From NCBI GenBank assembly GCA_958295695.1, contig OY282363.1:1555403-1619402 (forward strand): a stretch of DNA of 64,000 nt, in the 5' to 3' direction. The notes under the pieces were generated by a model, which did no database searches, was not told the DNA's origin, and was given only the letters and a program-made list of their open reading frames with translations. This document shows positions 52,485 through 62,274 of the stretch, one piece after another; the first letter of the stretch is position 1, and each line of letters begins with the position of its first letter. This DNA is from an uncultured Alphaproteobacteria bacterium (GTDB taxonomy: Bacteria; Pseudomonadota; Alphaproteobacteria; SP197). A program made the translations under genes and the position numbers.

Positions 52485-54014
52485 CTACACCGTTCGCCGG
52501 CCGATCTCGGCCTTGCGGCGGGTCGCGAAGGCGTCGAGTTCTTCCGCGATGGCGGGGTCGAGGGCGGGGGGCTCGTAGGCGTCCAGAATCTTTTTGTAGA
52601 GCGTGTTCGCGCGGGCCGCGGCGTCGGGGCCGCCGGCCTCCCGCCAGCTCTCGAAGTTGCGCCAGTCGGAGACCATCGGTTCGTAGAAGGCGGTTTCGTA
52701 GCGCTCCAGCGTGTGCCGGGTTCCGAAGAAATGGCCGCCCGGCCCGACATCGCGCATGGCCTCGATACCGATCTCGTCGTCGGTGACCTCGACCGGCGTC
52801 ATCGTCTCGGCGATCATCTGGATGGTGTCGGCGTCGATCACCATCTTCTCGAAGCTCGCGACCAGTCCGCCCTCCAGCCAGCCCGCGCCGTGCAGCACGA
52901 TGTTGGCGTGCCCCATGACCGCGCCCCAGAGCGACATCTGGCTTTCGTAGGCCGCCTGGGCGTCGACCGACGTGGAGGCGTTGGCGTTGCTGGAGCGGTA
53001 GGGCAGGCCGTTGAGCCTTGCGAGCTGGCCGCCGATCATGGCCGCCTTGGCGTATTCGGGCGTGCCGAAGGCGGGGGCCCCGGTCTTCATGTCGACGTTG
53101 CTGGTGAAACCGCCGTAGACCATCGGCGCGCCGGGGTTGGCGAGCTGCACGAGGGCGAGGCCGGCCAGCGCCTCGGCGTTTTGCTGGGTCAGCGCGCCAG
53201 CGACCGTCGCGGGCGCCATGGCGCCGCAGAGCGTGAAGGGGGTGACGATCACCGGCTGGTTGTGCTCGGCCATCGTCATCATCCCGTCGAGCATGGGGGT
53301 GTCGAACCTGAGCGGCGAGTTGGCGTTGACGACCGTGACGATGCTGGGCTCGGCCTTGATCTCCTCGCGGGTCCTGCCGCGGGCGATGCAGATGATCGAG
53401 ATCGCGTCGTCGATGCGCTCGGCCCCCAGCGAATAGGCGTGCCAGGCGCGGTCGGTCAGGGTCGCGAAGGCCGAGAGGCAATCGAGATGGCGGCTCGCGG
53501 CCGGCAGGTCGGTCGGCTCCACCGGATAGCCGCCGAAGAAGTGGAGCGCGTTGAGGCTCTGGCCCAGACGCAGGAAGTCGCAATAGTCCTTGAAGTTGCC
53601 TTCGCGCCGTCCGCCGTCGAGATCGTGGGCGAAAGGCGGGCTCGCCACGGGACAGAACGCGATCCGGTTGCCGCCGATGGCGATCGTGCGGTCGGGGTTG
53701 CGGGCGTGAAGCCGGAATTCCGGCGGCGCGGCGGCGATCGCCTGGGCGACGAGCCCGCGGTCGAGCCTGACCCGCCTCGTGTCCCGGTCCACGTCGGCGC
53801 CGGCGGCCTGGAGGATGTCGAGCGCGCGGTCGTGGAGGAACTCGATCCCCACCTCCTCCAGCACCCTGAGCGACCGGTCCTGGATGAACCGCACTTCGTC
53901 CTCGGACAGAGGCGCCACCGGGGGGAAACGGTTCACCACCTCGCGCCACGGCGCCTGGCGTACCGCCGAACCCGCGGCCCGCGTCCGCCGCCCGCGCCGT
54001 CTCTCCCGCGCCAT
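52485..54014 (-). CDS. MttB-family methyltransferase (subfamily b)
   Basis: 509-residue paralogue of the protein at 50127: APWREVVNRFPPV, RNPDRTIAIGGNRIAF, SRHLDCLSAF, VYGGFTSNVDMKTGAPAFGT and VGPGGHFFGTRHTLERYETAFY. No in-frame amber codon. The pair is likely an ancient tandem duplication now separated by a low-GC lipoprotein gene. Substrate unknown; expected to be a quaternary or tertiary amine. Divergent from a YHS-domain gene over about 150 bases. Confidence 0.87.
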   Translation of the reverse strand: MARERRRGRRTRAAGSAVRQAPWREVVNRFPPVAPLSEDEVRFIQDRSLRVLEEVGIEFLHDRALDILQAAGADVDRDTRRVRLDRGLVAQAIAAAPPEFRLHARNPDRTIAIGGNRIAFCPVASPPFAHDLDGGRREGNFKDYCDFLRLGQSLNALHFFGGYPVEPTDLPAASRHLDCLSAFATLTDRAWHAYSLGAERIDDAISIICIARGRTREEIKAEPSIVTVVNANSPLRFDTPMLDGMMTMAEHNQPVIVTPFTLCGAMAPATVAGALTQQNAEALAGLALVQLANPGAPMVYGGFTSNVDMKTGAPAFGTPEYAKAAMIGGQLARLNGLPYRSSNANASTSVDAQAAYESQMSLWGAVMGHANIVLHGAGWLEGGLVASFEKMVIDADTIQMIAETMTPVEVTDDEIGIEAMRDVGPGGHFFGTRHTLERYETAFYEPMVSDWRNFESWREAGGPDAAARANTLYKKILDAYEPPALDPAIAEELDAFATRRKAEIGRRTV

Positions 54015-54167
54015 GAAGGCCTCTTGTCCCCGACCGTTCTTTCGACCGCTCTTAGGGCGGGGCCGGAACGGTGTAAACACGGCGACCGCAATCCGTTGCA
54101 TCGGGCGGCCGGAAATGATGAGATCGACGCCGGTTCCGCGCGCCGGACACGGGAAGGGACACCTGCG

Positions 54168-56573: not shown

Positions 56574-58250
56574 TCAACCCCGCCCGAGCATGGGCAGGTT
56601 CAGGCCGTGCTCCCGGGCGCAGTCGACGGCCTCCGGGTAGCCGGCGTCGGCGTGGCGCATGACGCCGGTCGCGGGATCGTTCGTCAGCACGTTCCGCAGA
56701 CGCCGGTCGGCGTCCTCGCTGCCGTCGCAGACCACGACCATGCCGGCGTGCTGGCTGTAGCCGACGCCGACGCCGCCGCCGTTGTGGATCGAGACCCAGG
56801 TCGCGCCCGAGGCGACGTTGAGCATGGCGTTGAGGAGCGGCCAGTCGGCCACGGCGTCCGAGCCGTCGCGCATGCCCTCGGTCTCGCGGTTCGGGCTCGC
56901 GACCGATCCGGAATCGAGATGGTCGCGGCCGATGACGATGGGCGCCTTCAGCACGCCGTCGCGCACCATCCGGTTGAAGGCCAGCCCCGCGCGGGCGCGC
57001 TCGCCGAGGCCGATCCAGCAGATGCGGGCGGGCAGGCCCTGGAAGGCGATGCGCTCCCCGGCCATGTCGAGCCAGCGGTGGAGCGAGGGGTTGTCGGGCG
57101 CGACCTCCTTCATCGCCTCGTCGGTCCGGCGGATGTCCTCGGGGTCGCCCGAGAGCGCCGCCCAGCGGAACGGCCCGACGCCGCGGCAGAACAGCGGACG
57201 GATGTAGGCGGGCACGAAGCCGGGGATGTCGAAGGCGTCCTCGACGCCCCGTTCCAGGGCCATCTGCCGGATGTTGTTGCCGTAGTCGAAGGTCGGCACG
57301 CCCCGGTCGCGGAACGCGAGCATGGCGCGCACGTGGGCCGCCATGGAATCGCGCGCGGCCCGTGCGACGCCCTCGGGGTCGGCCTCGCGGCGCTCCTCCC
57401 ACCGCTCCAGGGTCCAGCCCGCCGGCAGGTAGCCGTTGACCGGGTCGTGCGCGCTGGTCTGGTCGGTCAGCAGGTCGGGCCTCGCACCCATTTCCAGCAG
57501 CCGGGGCAGCATCTCGGCGGCGTTGCCGGCGACGCCGACGGAGACCGTCTCGCCCGACGCCGTCGCCCGGTCGACGATCGCCAGCGCCTCCTCGAGCGAC
57601 GCGGCCTTGCGGTCGAGGTAGCGCGTCTCCAGCCGCCGTTCGATCCGGCTGGGCCGGCACTCGATCGCGAGCAGGGACGCGCCGGCCATGGTGGCGGCCA
57701 GCGGCTGGGCGCCGCCCATGCCGCCGAGCCCGGCGGTCAGGATCCACCGGCCGGCCAGGTCGCCGCCGTAGTGCCGGCGGCCCGCCTCCGCGAAGGTCTC
57801 GTAGGTGCCCTGCACGATCCCCTGGCTGCCGATGTAGATCCAGGAGCCCGCCGTCATCTGGCCGTACATCGCGAGCCCCTTGCGATCGAGCTCGTGGAAA
57901 TGGTCCCAGTCGTTCCAGTGGCCCACGAGGTTCGCGTTCGCGATCAGCACGCGCGGCGCGTCCCCGTGGGTGCGGAAGACCCCGACCGGCTTGCCCGACT
58001 GGACCAGGAGGGTTTCGTCGTCCTCCAGGACGCGCAGCGCCGCGCGGATGCGGTCGAAGCAGTCCCAGTCGCGCGCCGCCCGGCCGATGCCGCCGTAGAC
58101 CACGAGCTCCTCGGGCCTCTCGGCGACGTCGGGATCGAGGTTGTTCATCATCATCCGCAGGGGCGCTTCGGTGAGCCAGCTTTTGGCCGTGATCGCGGTC
58201 CCCGTGGGCGCGCGCACCTCGCGGGCGTTGGCGAAGCGGTCGTCGGGCAT
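56574..58250 (-). CDS. hutU: urocanate hydratase
   Basis: 558-residue urocanase, which converts urocanate to imidazolone propionate in histidine degradation. NAD-binding [12 protein letters not shown] (about residues 174-185), [15 protein letters not shown] and the active-site Cys region [18 protein letters not shown] are intact. Full family length. Other hut genes are not in the window; the gene 19 bases upstream is an uncharacterised protein on the same strand. Confidence 0.96.
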
Positions 58251-58269: not shown

Positions 58270-59028
58270 TCAGGCGAGCAGGGCGCGCAGCCCGGCGATC
58301 TGCTCCTCGACCGAGACGGCGCTCCAGGAGGCGACCTCCAGGCCCTTGTCCTCGTAGACGTCGCCCGGATGGGAGCGGCGCCGGGCCTCGACGGCGAGGT
58401 CGCGCTCCCGGATCAGGTCCTTCACGAGGGGGCGGAACAGCCGGACCGCGCTGGTGATCCAGCGGTTGACGGGCCACGACGGGCGGGCGTGGCCGATCTC
58501 GAACCGGTCGACCATGTCGCAGACGTCCGCCGCCGCGTACCAGGCCTCGCCCGTGACCCAGCGGTTCACCGTGAACAGGCCGATCGGGTGGCCCCTGGCG
58601 TCCATCGAGATCGCGATCAGGTGGCTCAGGGCGTTGTCGCCCGTGGGCCACGCCGCCTCGCCGTCGTAGGGTGCCGGCTCGACGCCGGGCTTCATGCCCG
58701 AGGCGCGCAGGAAGGTGTGGAAATGGCCGTGCTCGCCGGGCCGCCGGTCCTTCGGGTGAGCGTGGTAGTAGTACTGGCTGTGGCTGTCGCGGTCGAGGAC
58801 GTCGCCCTTGGGATAGTGCCGCCACTGGTAGAAGGTTCCCGCGTCGCGCAGCAGCTCGCCCACGATGTTGTCGTTCGTCTTGCCGAGGACGCGATGGCAC
58901 TCCAGCACGTCCTCGCCCGCCTCCAGCATGGCCCGGAGCTCGCTCCGTTCGAAGTCCTCGATCCGGGTGCGCGGCGGCGGGTCGGGCAGGGCCCGGGGTT
59001 GCGCCAGCGTGGGGGATGCGCTCGCCAT
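58270..59028 (-). CDS. conserved uncharacterised protein upstream of hutU
   Basis: 252-residue soluble protein I cannot name with certainty (it resembles DUF6969-type proteins). Notable is a His/Tyr-rich core [20 protein letters not shown] then YYYHAH and EHGHFHTF, suggesting metal binding, and [18 protein letters not shown] near the C-terminus. It precedes hutU by 19 bases on the same strand, so co-transcription is likely. No signal peptide. Confidence 0.7.
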
Positions 59029-59096: not shown

Positions 59097-59993
59097 TCAG
59101 GGCTCCAGCACCAGCCGGAAGCCGATCAGGATGTGGCGCAGATCCTCCGGTCGGCCGTGGCGGTCGGCCGGCCGGCACACGCCGCAGCCGCGGTCGTCCC
59201 ACGACCCGCCCTTGACCCAGTAGCGGCCCGGCCGCTGTTCGTCGGCTGTCCATTCGAAGACCTGCCCCGCCGCGTCCATCATGCCGAAGGGGCTGGCGCC
59301 CGCCGGGAACGAGCCGACGGGCGCGGTCGCGAACGGGCCGGCGTCGTGGCTGTTGAGCTTCGAGGCGTCCCATGCGTCGCCCCAGGGGAACATGCGCCCG
59401 TCCGTTCCGCGCGCGGCCTTCTCCCACTCCAGCGCCGTGGGCAGCCGCCATGTCCGCCCCGTCGCCGCCGACATCCACGCGGCGAACGCCCCGGCGTCGG
59501 CGCGGTCGACCAGCACGACGGGGTGGTCGAGCTTGTCGGCCGGCGGCTCGCCCCCGGTCCAAGCGTAGGGCCGGGTCCGTTCGTAGGGGTGGACGAGACC
59601 GTAAGCGTCCCATGTCGCCCTGTCCACGCCGGGCGGCTCGCGCCCCGTGGCCCGGACGAAGAGCGCGTAGTCGGCCTGGGTGACGAGGTTCCGGGCGATG
59701 AAGTAGGCCGGCAGTTCGACCGTCCGGCGATCTTCGTCGTCGTCGTACCAGCCCCACCGCCGGGTCCTGTCGTGCCCGTAGGCGGCCTCGTCGAGCCGGT
59801 AGGCCGCCTCGCGCTCGTCGCCGTCGGAGCCGGCGACGAAGGGGCCCGCCGGGATCCCGATGACGTCCAGCTTCGGGACCGCCGGCTCCGCGCCGGCCCA
59901 CACGTTCGGGAGGACGGCGAGGAAGACCGCCGCGCACGCCGCGACGACCGGGGCGCCCCGGGGTCCGGGCCTCACACGAACGTGAAAGCGCAT
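59097..59993 (-). CDS. exported SUMF1/FGE-like protein
   Basis: 298-residue protein with a signal peptide (ends near VWAGAEP) and the formylglycine-generating-enzyme (SUMF1) fold: GIPAGPFVAGSDGDE, YFIARNLVTQADYALF, RLPTALEWEKAARG and VKGGSWDDRGCGVC. The canonical FGE Cys-x4-Cys pair is not present; the first Cys position is Asp and the cysteines form CGVC instead. It is therefore probably not a sulfatase activator but a SUMF1-like protein of other function. Divergent from the cysteine-rich secreted protein over 128 bases. Confidence 0.8.
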   Translation of the reverse strand: MRFHVRVRPGPRGAPVVAACAAVFLAVLPNVWAGAEPAVPKLDVIGIPAGPFVAGSDGDEREAAYRLDEAAYGHDRTRRWGWYDDDEDRRTVELPAYFIARNLVTQADYALFVRATGREPPGVDRATWDAYGLVHPYERTRPYAWTGGEPPADKLDHPVVLVDRADAGAFAAWMSAATGRTWRLPTALEWEKAARGTDGRMFPWGDAWDASKLNSHDAGPFATAPVGSFPAGASPFGMMDAAGQVFEWTADEQRPGRYWVKGGSWDDRGCGVCRPADRHGRPEDLRHILIGFRLVLEP

Positions 59994-60121
59994 CGATGGC
60001 CCGCCTCTCCCCGGAGCGTCTATCATCCGCCACGAGAGCCGCGGGCGTTTAAGGGCGCGCGGCTCGTTCGGCAAGAGCGTCGGGACATCCGTCCCCCACC
60101 AACCTGGAGGCTTCTTTCTCG

Positions 60122-60568
60122 ATGAGTCAACTCAAGCGCAATCTGCTGTCGACCGCGGTTCTTCCGGCGGTCGTGGGCGCGGGCGCGGTGCTGGCGGTCG
60201 GCGCGGCGACCGTTCCTTGCGGCCGCGCCTCGCAGACCGGGACCTACGCGTCGTCCGGCCCGGCCAACCCCGAAGCCGTACCGGCGCCGACCGGGCTCGC
60301 CGCGGGCTGCGACGCCTGTGGGGCTTGCGGAGCCTGTGGAGGCTGCAATCCGTGCGCGGCCTGCAATCTAGCTACTACGGACGCTATTCCGCCGACAGTC
60401 GAGGACCCGTGCAATCCGTGCGCGGCCTGCAATCCCTGCGAGCTCCTGGAGGAGTGCAATCCGTGCGCGGCGGCCTGCGGCGCGTGTGGCGGATGCAATC
60501 CGTGCGCGGCGTGCAATCCGTGCGGGACTTGCGGCGCCTGTGGCGGATGCGGAGCCTGCGGCGGTTGA
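60122..60568 (+). CDS. secreted cysteine-rich (CxxC)n repeat protein
   Basis: 148-residue protein with a hydrophobic N-terminus of about 30 residues (likely signal peptide) and a tail of tandem CxxC units. There are 24 cysteines: one at 33, then a period-three ladder at 63-81, 97-106, 112/115/119 and 122-146. The repeat words are CNPCAAC and CGACGG. A Cys-free spacer LATTDAIPPTVEDP interrupts it. Such a ladder could bind soft metals (copper, zinc) or be post-translationally modified. No known family is certain. Its partner may be the divergent SUMF1-like gene. Confidence 0.7.
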   Translation: MSQLKRNLLSTAVLPAVVGAGAVLAVGAATVPCGRASQTGTYASSGPANPEAVPAPTGLAAGCDACGACGACGGCNPCAACNLATTDAIPPTVEDPCNPCAACNPCELLEECNPCAAACGACGGCNPCAACNPCGTCGACGGCGACGG

Positions 60569-61134
60569 GGCGAGGGCGGCCCACGGAACGTCCGCCGGCA
60601 GGGCCGGCGGGCTGTTGGGTCGCCGCGGGACGTGGAACCCGGGCGTCGGGCCGGTCGCGGTGACGATGGACGTCATGGCGACCGCCCCGCCGGGCTCCAC
60701 CGCGCCGTAGAAGAAGTTCGGGCCGTCGCGCGGCTCCTCGTAGACCGCGTTTCCGGACGAAACGGTCGGACGGGAAGGGGCGGCCTGCCCCCGACATCCG
60801 CCCGAAGGAAAGCCCGTCGTATAGGTCGCTGGGGGGCCGGGGACCTTCCGGAGTCCGATGTCGTGGCGGGTCCAGGCGCGTCCGGCGGCGTCGGTCGCGA
60901 TCTTCCCGATGGCGAAGCCGGCCGAATGCGGGATGACGCCCCGGTTGTCCGCGATCTCCTCGATCGCCGCGATCGGGTCGGCGAGCGAGCCCGGGCCGAA
61001 GACGGCCGGGATCGTGTAAGCTGCCCGGTTCCTCGCTGAACGTCGGGCCGCGGACCGTCCACGGCCCGGCTTGGGCCGTCGCCGCCGCGTCGGGCGGCGG
61101 TTGACCGCCTTCCCGGCCGTTCTATGGTGGACCC
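60569..61134. other. intergenic region with possible decayed gene
   Basis: About 565 bases without an intact gene. The minus strand between about 60830 and 61030 keeps protein-like codon use (listed separately); the plus-strand frames are low-complexity shadows. Confidence 0.4.
60830..61030 (-). pseudogene. gene remnant of unknown family
   Basis: The minus frame reads about 65 residues of protein-like sequence with strong G/C third positions, including YTIPAVFGPGSLADPIAAIE and GVIPHSAGFAIGKIATDA, but no ATG/GTG/TTG start is available in frame before it and the frame loses coding character beyond about 60830. It looks like an internal fragment of a decayed or frameshifted gene. The family was not recognised. 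Confidence 0.35.
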
Positions 61135-62274
61135 ATGGACCCTTCGTCTCTCCTGACGGGCGCGCGGTTCGCGATGGGCCACGCCGCCGCCGACACGTGG
61201 CAGAAGGCCGCGCGCTCGGTGGCCGAGCAGCTCGGCGACCGCGACGAGGACGACGTCGGGTTCGTCTACGTAACGGACCGCCTCGCCGACCGCCTGGGCG
61301 ATATCGCCTCGTTCCTCGCCGCGGCGACCGGGACGCTCCACTGGTGCGGCACGGTGGGGATCGGCGTCTGCGCCACGGGCCGGGAATACTTCGACCGGCC
61401 CGCCGTGGCCGCCATGAGCTGCCGCCTGCCGCGCTCGAGGCTCGCCTCCTTCGGGTCCGTCGACGAGGCCATCGCGGCCCGCGGCGAGCTGGGCGCCGGC
61501 CCGGGCGGGGCCTTCTGCATCGTCCACGGCGACCCCCGGCGCCGGGAGCTGCCGGGCGACATCCCCAGGCTCGCCCGCGACACCGACGGGTTCCTCGTCG
61601 GCGGCCTGACGTCGTCGCGCGGCGCCTTCTCCGCCTTGGCCGGCCATCCGGTCGACGGCGCCCTTTCGGGCCTCCTGATCGCCGACGCCCACGTCGCGGT
61701 CGGGCTCACGCAGGGTTGCGCGCCGCTGGGCGGATACCACGAGGTGACCGGGGCCGACGACAACATCGTCGTCGCGCTCGACGGCCGTCCGGCCATGGAC
61801 GTGTTCGTCGAGACGCTCGCCGGGGCCGGCGTGACCGATCCGCGCGCCCTGTCGGGCGCGCTCCATGTGGCGCTGCCGGTGACGGGGTCCGACACGGGCG
61901 ACTATCTCGTGCGCAACCTGCTCGGGCTCGATCCGGAGGCGCGCACGATCGCCATCGGCGACCGCGTCGAGCCGGGCGACGCCCTGATGTTCTGCCGCCG
62001 CGACGCCGAGGCCGCCGAGGCCGACCTGCGGCGCATGCTGCGCGACCTGAAGGCGAGGGCCCCGCGTCCGTGCGGCGGGCTCTACTTCAGTTGCCTCGCC
62101 CGCGGTCCCGGCATGTTCGGCGAGGAGGGCCGGGAATTGGGAATCGTCGCGGAGGCGCTGGGCGACCTTCCCCTCGTCGGCTTCTTCGGCAACGGCGAGA
62201 TCTCCTTCGACCGTCTCTACGCCTACACCGGCGTGCTCGCGCTGTTCCTGGAGCCCGACGGCGACCGTCGCTGA
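61135..62274 (+). CDS. FIST-domain sensory protein
   Basis: 379-residue protein with an N-terminal FIST domain (about residues 30-215; CGTVGIGV, GFLVGGLTSSRG, QGCAPLGG) and a C-terminal FIST_C domain (about 225-360; CGGLYFSCLARGPGMFGEEG, GFFGNGEISF). FIST proteins are predicted small-ligand (amino acid or similar) sensors. No output domain is fused. It stands alone. Confidence 0.88.
   Translation: MDPSSLLTGARFAMGHAAADTWQKAARSVAEQLGDRDEDDVGFVYVTDRLADRLGDIASFLAAATGTLHWCGTVGIGVCATGREYFDRPAVAAMSCRLPRSRLASFGSVDEAIAARGELGAGPGGAFCIVHGDPRRRELPGDIPRLARDTDGFLVGGLTSSRGAFSALAGHPVDGALSGLLIADAHVAVGLTQGCAPLGGYHEVTGADDNIVVALDGRPAMDVFVETLAGAGVTDPRALSGALHVALPVTGSDTGDYLVRNLLGLDPEARTIAIGDRVEPGDALMFCRRDAEAAEADLRRMLRDLKARAPRPCGGLYFSCLARGPGMFGEEGRELGIVAEALGDLPLVGFFGNGEISFDRLYAYTGVLALFLEPDGDRR

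Follow-up and report, generated by a model that had tools for sequence, protein, structure and literature searches.

Proteins with long cysteine ladders and members of the DUF6969 family (PF22308), as read from the genomes compared here, co-occur almost without exception, usually as neighbours, and together they apparently form the core of an undescribed gene cassette of Alphaproteobacteria and some Gammaproteobacteria. The window, the whole stretch of 64,000 nucleotides that was analysed from an uncultured alphaproteobacterium, contains a ladder-only member of this family, showing the shared N-terminus and the CxxC/CNPC ladder, and its genome carries a DUF6969 gene. Since DUF6969 accompanies the ladder almost invariably, dedicated machinery that makes or loads the cysteine chains is suggested. 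No paper mentioning DUF6969, PF22308 or the repeat words of the ladder was found in a search that mostly lay outside subscription journals.

The ladder gene of the window and its relatives

The ladder gene lies where the first-pass annotation put it, from an ATG at position 60122 to a TGA at 60568 (+ strand), and encodes 148 amino acids with the 24 cysteines that it counted; the words CNPCAAC and CGACGG that it quoted are both present. A ribosome-binding site, GGAGG (60106..60110, + strand), is read from the sequence 11 nt upstream of the ATG. The protein begins with a signal-like N-terminus, MSQLKRNLLSTAVLPAVVGAGAVLAVGAATV (60122..60214, + strand), assigned by comparison with the N-termini of P460-type relatives: a basic start is followed by a hydrophobic stretch of about 24 residues (read by eye), and many distant relatives of the P460 type show the motif [KR]xxLLS[ST]TVLPxxxGxG, in loose form, in their signal regions. 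Cysteine positions define ladder arm 1, amino acids 63-81 (CDACGACGACGGCNPCAAC; 60308..60364, + strand), and ladder arm 2, amino acids 97-146 (60410..60559, + strand), which are split by a cysteine-free linker of 15 residues, amino acids 82-96 (60365..60409, + strand), without the C-VPR motif found here in many relatives; Cys33 stands apart. A cysteine at every third residue over about 85 residues had been described: the spacing is exactly three in 19 of the 23 successive Cys-Cys gaps, but the ladder is not unbroken. Shuffling the tail (amino acids 61-148) 20,000 times gave a mean of 3.2 such gaps and a maximum of 10.

The N-terminal 62 codons give a dN of 0.11 and a dS of 0.41 against L003 (ratio about 0.28), and a dN of 0.17 and a dS of 0.78 against L001 (ratio about 0.21), which indicates a maintained protein whose N-terminus is under purifying selection; cysteine, alanine and glycine codons are mixed within the repeats. 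These ratios and the mixed repeat codons rule out slippage in a non-coding region, the artefact that the first-pass annotation had allowed for. The ladder protein shows no Pfam or NCBIfam family match at E values up to 1, neither to a bufferin domain such as DUF2282 nor to metallothionein or copper storage family models, and no Pfam match to a P460 domain. The window genome carries one ladder. Searching it with the L001 protein found no P460 elsewhere, PF16694 had no match in it, but gave none in the control genomes either, and a decayed haem domain downstream of the ladder gene was rejected because tblastn with the domains of three relatives had no match there. Between the ladder gene and a FIST gene, positions 60600-61080 (- strand) hold a protein-like, frame-broken reading, GPGSLADPIAAIEEIADNRGVIPHSAGFAIGKIATDAAGRAW..., with no Pfam match, which is probably a decayed gene. 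The FIST gene encodes a FIST_N/FIST_C sensor-type protein (61135-62274, + strand) that is kept near the ladder in L001 with 76% identity, and a trimethylamine methyltransferase (MTTB) family protein is encoded at 52485-54101 (- strand).

Homologues from five loci (L001-L004 and L010) align with the ladder protein across the N-terminus and the ladder. The ladder is present in nine of the 16 genomes of the same family as the window genome, and more distant relatives were found across Alphaproteobacteria and in Granulosicoccaceae. The absence of homologues, which the first-pass annotation named together with absent expression as counting against its idea, does not apply, because homologues and conserved neighbours exist. 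The relatives, most of them longer than the window copy and with up to 111 cysteines (L006), show three architectures. The first has two ladder arms with C-VPR between them, followed by a P460-type haem domain ending in CxxCH, and this C-terminal domain matches Cytochrome_P460 (PF16694) in 16 of 16 sequences; it includes the close relatives L001, L002 and L004. The second, in Granulosicoccaceae and others, joins the ladder to a SoxA/TsdA-type cytochrome c domain (PF21342 matched in L008 and L087). The third is the ladder only and includes the window copy, which differs from the longer relatives in having no P460 domain; ladder-only proteins adjoin DUF6969 in unrelated genomes (L114, L117, L118, L120, L122, L126 and L128). 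Intermediates occur in the genus of the window: L010, L026 and L027 show a P460-like tail without CxxCH (by eye; no Pfam match). Other P460 proteins are not known to carry a cysteine ladder. Lipobox-like N-termini in L008, L141, L094 and L167 (VSGC, TSGC, TSAC and LAGC) suggest that some ladder proteins may be lipoproteins.

Association of the ladder with DUF6969

The DUF6969 gene of the window (58270..59028, - strand, start codon inferred; E 6.2e-83) lies directly behind a SUMF1-like gene. An alignment of 88 DUF6969 sequences shows the (near-)invariant motifs HYP..D..D, Q..YHxH, EHGHFHxF, a further histidine, NRWVT, N.W and RD, with seven (near-)invariant histidines. These motifs are typical of a metal site, and we infer that DUF6969 is a histidine-rich metalloprotein; by eye it has no signal peptide, and it is predicted to be cytosolic. 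Against the PDB, DUF6969 had no sequence match, and an AF2 model built from nine sequences (pLDDT 81, pTM 0.85) had no fold match by Foldseek (best E 0.42, probability 0.08). The urocanase gene at 56574-58250 of the window has also kept its place near DUF6969 in L002 and L004.

DUF6969 adjoins, or shares a genome with, every ladder locus tested. When bacterial genomes were scanned with only the ladder as query, 12 loci came up, all in genomes with DUF6969, and the ladder-DUF6969 neighbourhood occurs in both Alpha- and Gammaproteobacteria. DUF6969 is near the ladder in L001, L002, L003, L004, L006, L007, L008 and L009; for L005, L011 and L012 it is not beside the ladder match but elsewhere in the genome, in a full cassette with a further ladder, which bears P460 in two of these cases, and a SUMF1-like gene. 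Among the 16 genomes of the window's family, intact DUF6969 is present in nine of the nine ladder genomes and five genomes have neither gene (Fisher p 9e-4, a value that ignores shared ancestry). The remaining two are G004, whose contig ends inside SUMF1, and G008, which shows a deletion scar (L100, 7864-8301): DUF6969 is left with its 3' half, now fused to the 3' end of a P460 gene, and the deletion removed SUMF1 and the ladder.

DUF6969 was found in 62 of 289 sampled Alphaproteobacteria and in 20 of the 398 genomes of a phylum sample. When a DNA pattern of NPC[AG]x..NPC was searched in the same 289 Alphaproteobacteria, at least three NPC-ladder matches were found in 26 of the 62 genomes with DUF6969 vs none of the 227 without it (p 3e-20, inflated by shared ancestry, the positive genomes spanning many families), and at least two in 31 of 62 vs one of 227; a backwards control pattern matched almost nowhere. 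Four genomes (G482, G497, G592 and G596) have no ladder adjoining the DUF6969 locus and contain NPC repeats elsewhere. Fewer than two matches were found in 31 of the 62 DUF6969 genomes. At least three genomes without a match (G467, G571 and G574) nevertheless carry CGAC-type or mixed ladders (L113, L106 and L127) that are invisible to the pattern, and other DUF6969 genomes without NPC matches may have no ladder at all. With fewer than two matches in half of the genomes that carry it, DUF6969 may have substrates besides the ladder. The DUF6969 loci L115 (6592-7728 and 9268-10488) and L119 (likewise) contain a cysteine-free protein with a weak P460 match that adjoins DUF6969, a possible second type of substrate, and have a PqqE-like radical SAM/SPASM gene nearby.

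The SUMF1-like gene and other neighbours

The exported-looking, divergent SUMF1-like gene reported by the first-pass annotation is borne out: it lies at 59097..59993 (- strand, start codon inferred), 128 bp from the ladder gene, and matches PF03781 (FGE-sulfatase) with an E value of 8.8e-38. The protein has a full FGE-type domain with the GGSW...GFR core motifs, but belongs to a subfamily of its own. An alignment of 27 subfamily sequences shows a nearly invariant KGGSWDDxGCG[VI]CRxAxRHxR...HIL[IV]GFR, in which CGxC is invariant. FGE has the cysteine spacing GGSxxCxxxxC, in place of which the subfamily has an invariant GGSWDDxGCGxC; the CGxC is near the place of the Cu(I)-binding FGE cysteine pair, with a different spacing, and the alignments to FGE structures in the PDB end short of it. 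Identity as EgtB, SenA or PvdO was rejected on scores far below the cut-offs, and the AF2 model of the protein (pLDDT 58) is too poor to use. The CxPxR substrate motif is absent from the ladder, where the residue after CNPC is A, E or G and R never stands two residues past P. SUMF1-like orthologues adjoin the ladder in L001, L003, L006, L008, L009, L026 and L027, and 25 of 87 DUF6969 loci contain the gene; it shares the strand of DUF6969 in every one of them and is at most 120 bp away in 20. No SUMF1 match was found in L002 and L004, though ladder and DUF6969 are present there. Judged by this distribution, the SUMF1-like gene does belong to the cassette as a third member, but an optional one. 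A small protein with one transmembrane segment and no Pfam match (L001 4552-5004, L003 1341-1706 and L031 6411-6764) is encoded divergently between DUF6969 and SUMF1; it is conserved in the window's family and absent from the window.

Among other neighbours, a c-550-type cytochrome recurs in 17-18 loci, DUF2336 proteins are recurrent and TRAP transporters occur in a smaller group of loci. Rhodanese genes lie beside ladders in L001, L002, L026, L027, L106, L113 and L116, and in L097, L098, L099 and L153 an SseA-like rhodanese directly adjoins DUF6969 with a YeeE-type Sulf_transp gene near; in all, Sulf_transp YeeE is found in eight loci and SseA-like rhodanese in four. The 25 most frequent neighbour families (singletons not listed) include no copper or metal-resistance family, and the same 25 include no Fe-S assembly genes. 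P460 proteins are known from hydroxylamine and NO chemistry and not for sulfur chemistry, and rhodanese and YeeE, present in a minority of loci, may be lineage-specific. YeeE-like SoxT proteins are described as sulfur importers of sulfur oxidisers (PMC11582611). As cargo of the ladder, sulfane sulfur or oxidised thiol species are weakly favoured and Cu(I) or another soft metal appears nearly as likely; the rhodanese and YeeE neighbours and the lack of a frequent copper family put sulfane sulfur slightly ahead of copper, by a thin margin.

Proposed maturation of the ladder and alternative readings

We give about even chances to a reading in which the window gene is the ladder-only form of an exported poly-cysteine protein family whose cassette matures or loads the ladder, DUF6969 acting before the SUMF1-like protein. 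DUF6969 would work on the ladder precursor in the cytosol, modifying ladder cysteines or loading a cofactor, and might recognise the conserved signal region of the ladder, as the signal region is proposed to be recognised in Buf1 (PMC12452194). The chain would then be exported via Sec, the SUMF1-like protein would work on it in the periplasm, and the mature poly-cysteine chain would carry its cargo beside c-type haem centres and swap electrons with c-550. That relatives are fused to haem domains of the P460 or SoxA/TsdA type suggests redox work over a passive sponge. The window copy itself, which has no haem domain, counts against this reading of the cassette. The first-pass annotation had proposed a metal sponge or modified peptide beside a SUMF1-like gene: the homologues, the neighbours and the SUMF1 link (25 of 87 loci) agree with it, whereas SUMF1 proved optional and the haem fusions point to redox work. 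It had neither DUF6969 as constant partner nor the haem domains of the relatives.

The closest known parallel is that of bufferins and other MNIO-modified precursors (PMC12452194), which share with the ladder the small cysteine-rich protein, the adjoining dedicated metalloenzyme-like gene and a conserved signal region, and whose Sec signal may have its counterpart in the signal-like start of the ladder protein; some bufferin fusions also hold FGE and cytochrome c domains. However, MNIO (PF05114) has no match in the whole window genome in a search that was positive in control genomes, and this absence rules out that the ladder is a bufferin. The partner of the ladder is instead DUF6969, with no PDB fold match, and the ladders are very long CxxC/CNPC ladders that in relatives carry a fused haem domain of the P460 or SoxA/TsdA type. 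A very high cysteine content and, in the ladder arms, the lack of aromatic residues are shared with metallothioneins and copper storage proteins, but the ladder is exported-looking and has dedicated partner genes.

On balance we find it unlikely that the ladder is an unmodified, metallothionein-like periplasmic buffer for soft metals (Cu(I), Ag, Zn, Hg), for which DUF6969 would serve as cytosolic chaperone and keep the ladder reduced and metal-free until export. The 24 cysteines in CxxC steps are classic for soft-metal binding, relatives of FGE are copper enzymes, a Buf1-cytochrome c-FGE fusion is on record, and bufferins show that copper can be buffered by Sec-exported cysteine-rich proteins (PMC12452194); against this, no copper family is among the frequent neighbours noted above, haem-domain fusion and c-550 linkage are atypical of sponges, and the (near-)invariant histidine cluster of DUF6969 looks enzymatic. 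It is improbable that the window copy is a degenerating remnant, the N-terminal part left of a ladder-P460 protein whose function went with its haem domain, despite the haem domains of L001, L002 and L004, the P460-like tails without CxxCH in the same genus, the loss of the cassette by deletion in G008 and the lack of any haem domain within the window copy or behind it: purifying selection acts on its N-terminus, both SUMF1 and DUF6969 have stayed intact, and ladder-only proteins adjoin DUF6969 in many unrelated genomes. That ladder-only members are common also makes quite improbable a poly-cysteine redox or electron relay between haem domains, perhaps bridged by metal or Fe-S, for which DUF6969 and SUMF1 would be the metallation or disulfide factors; the haem fusions and the link to cytochrome c-550 would fit such a relay, but the most frequent neighbour families hold no Fe-S assembly genes.

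A further and more tentative proposal, to which we give somewhat less than even odds, extends the maturation reading: DUF6969 may found a new class of metalloenzymes, new also in fold, that modify cysteines or load a cofactor, and the ladders may be a new class of modified proteins, Sec-exported and bearing signal peptides, that bring long modified or sulfur-loaded cysteine chains to periplasmic haem enzymes. A demonstration that DUF6969 modifies cysteines would establish such a new class. The family, which has no assigned function and was found in roughly one in five Alphaproteobacteria of the sample (62/289), gains a probable substrate and a role that can be tested, and the poly-cysteine proteins, with as many as 111 cysteines, offer sulfur or metal chemistry a natural material. 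The bufferin principle of a dedicated metalloenzyme and a Sec-exported cysteine-rich precursor would thereby reach an unrelated family without a known fold and proteins fused to haem domains.
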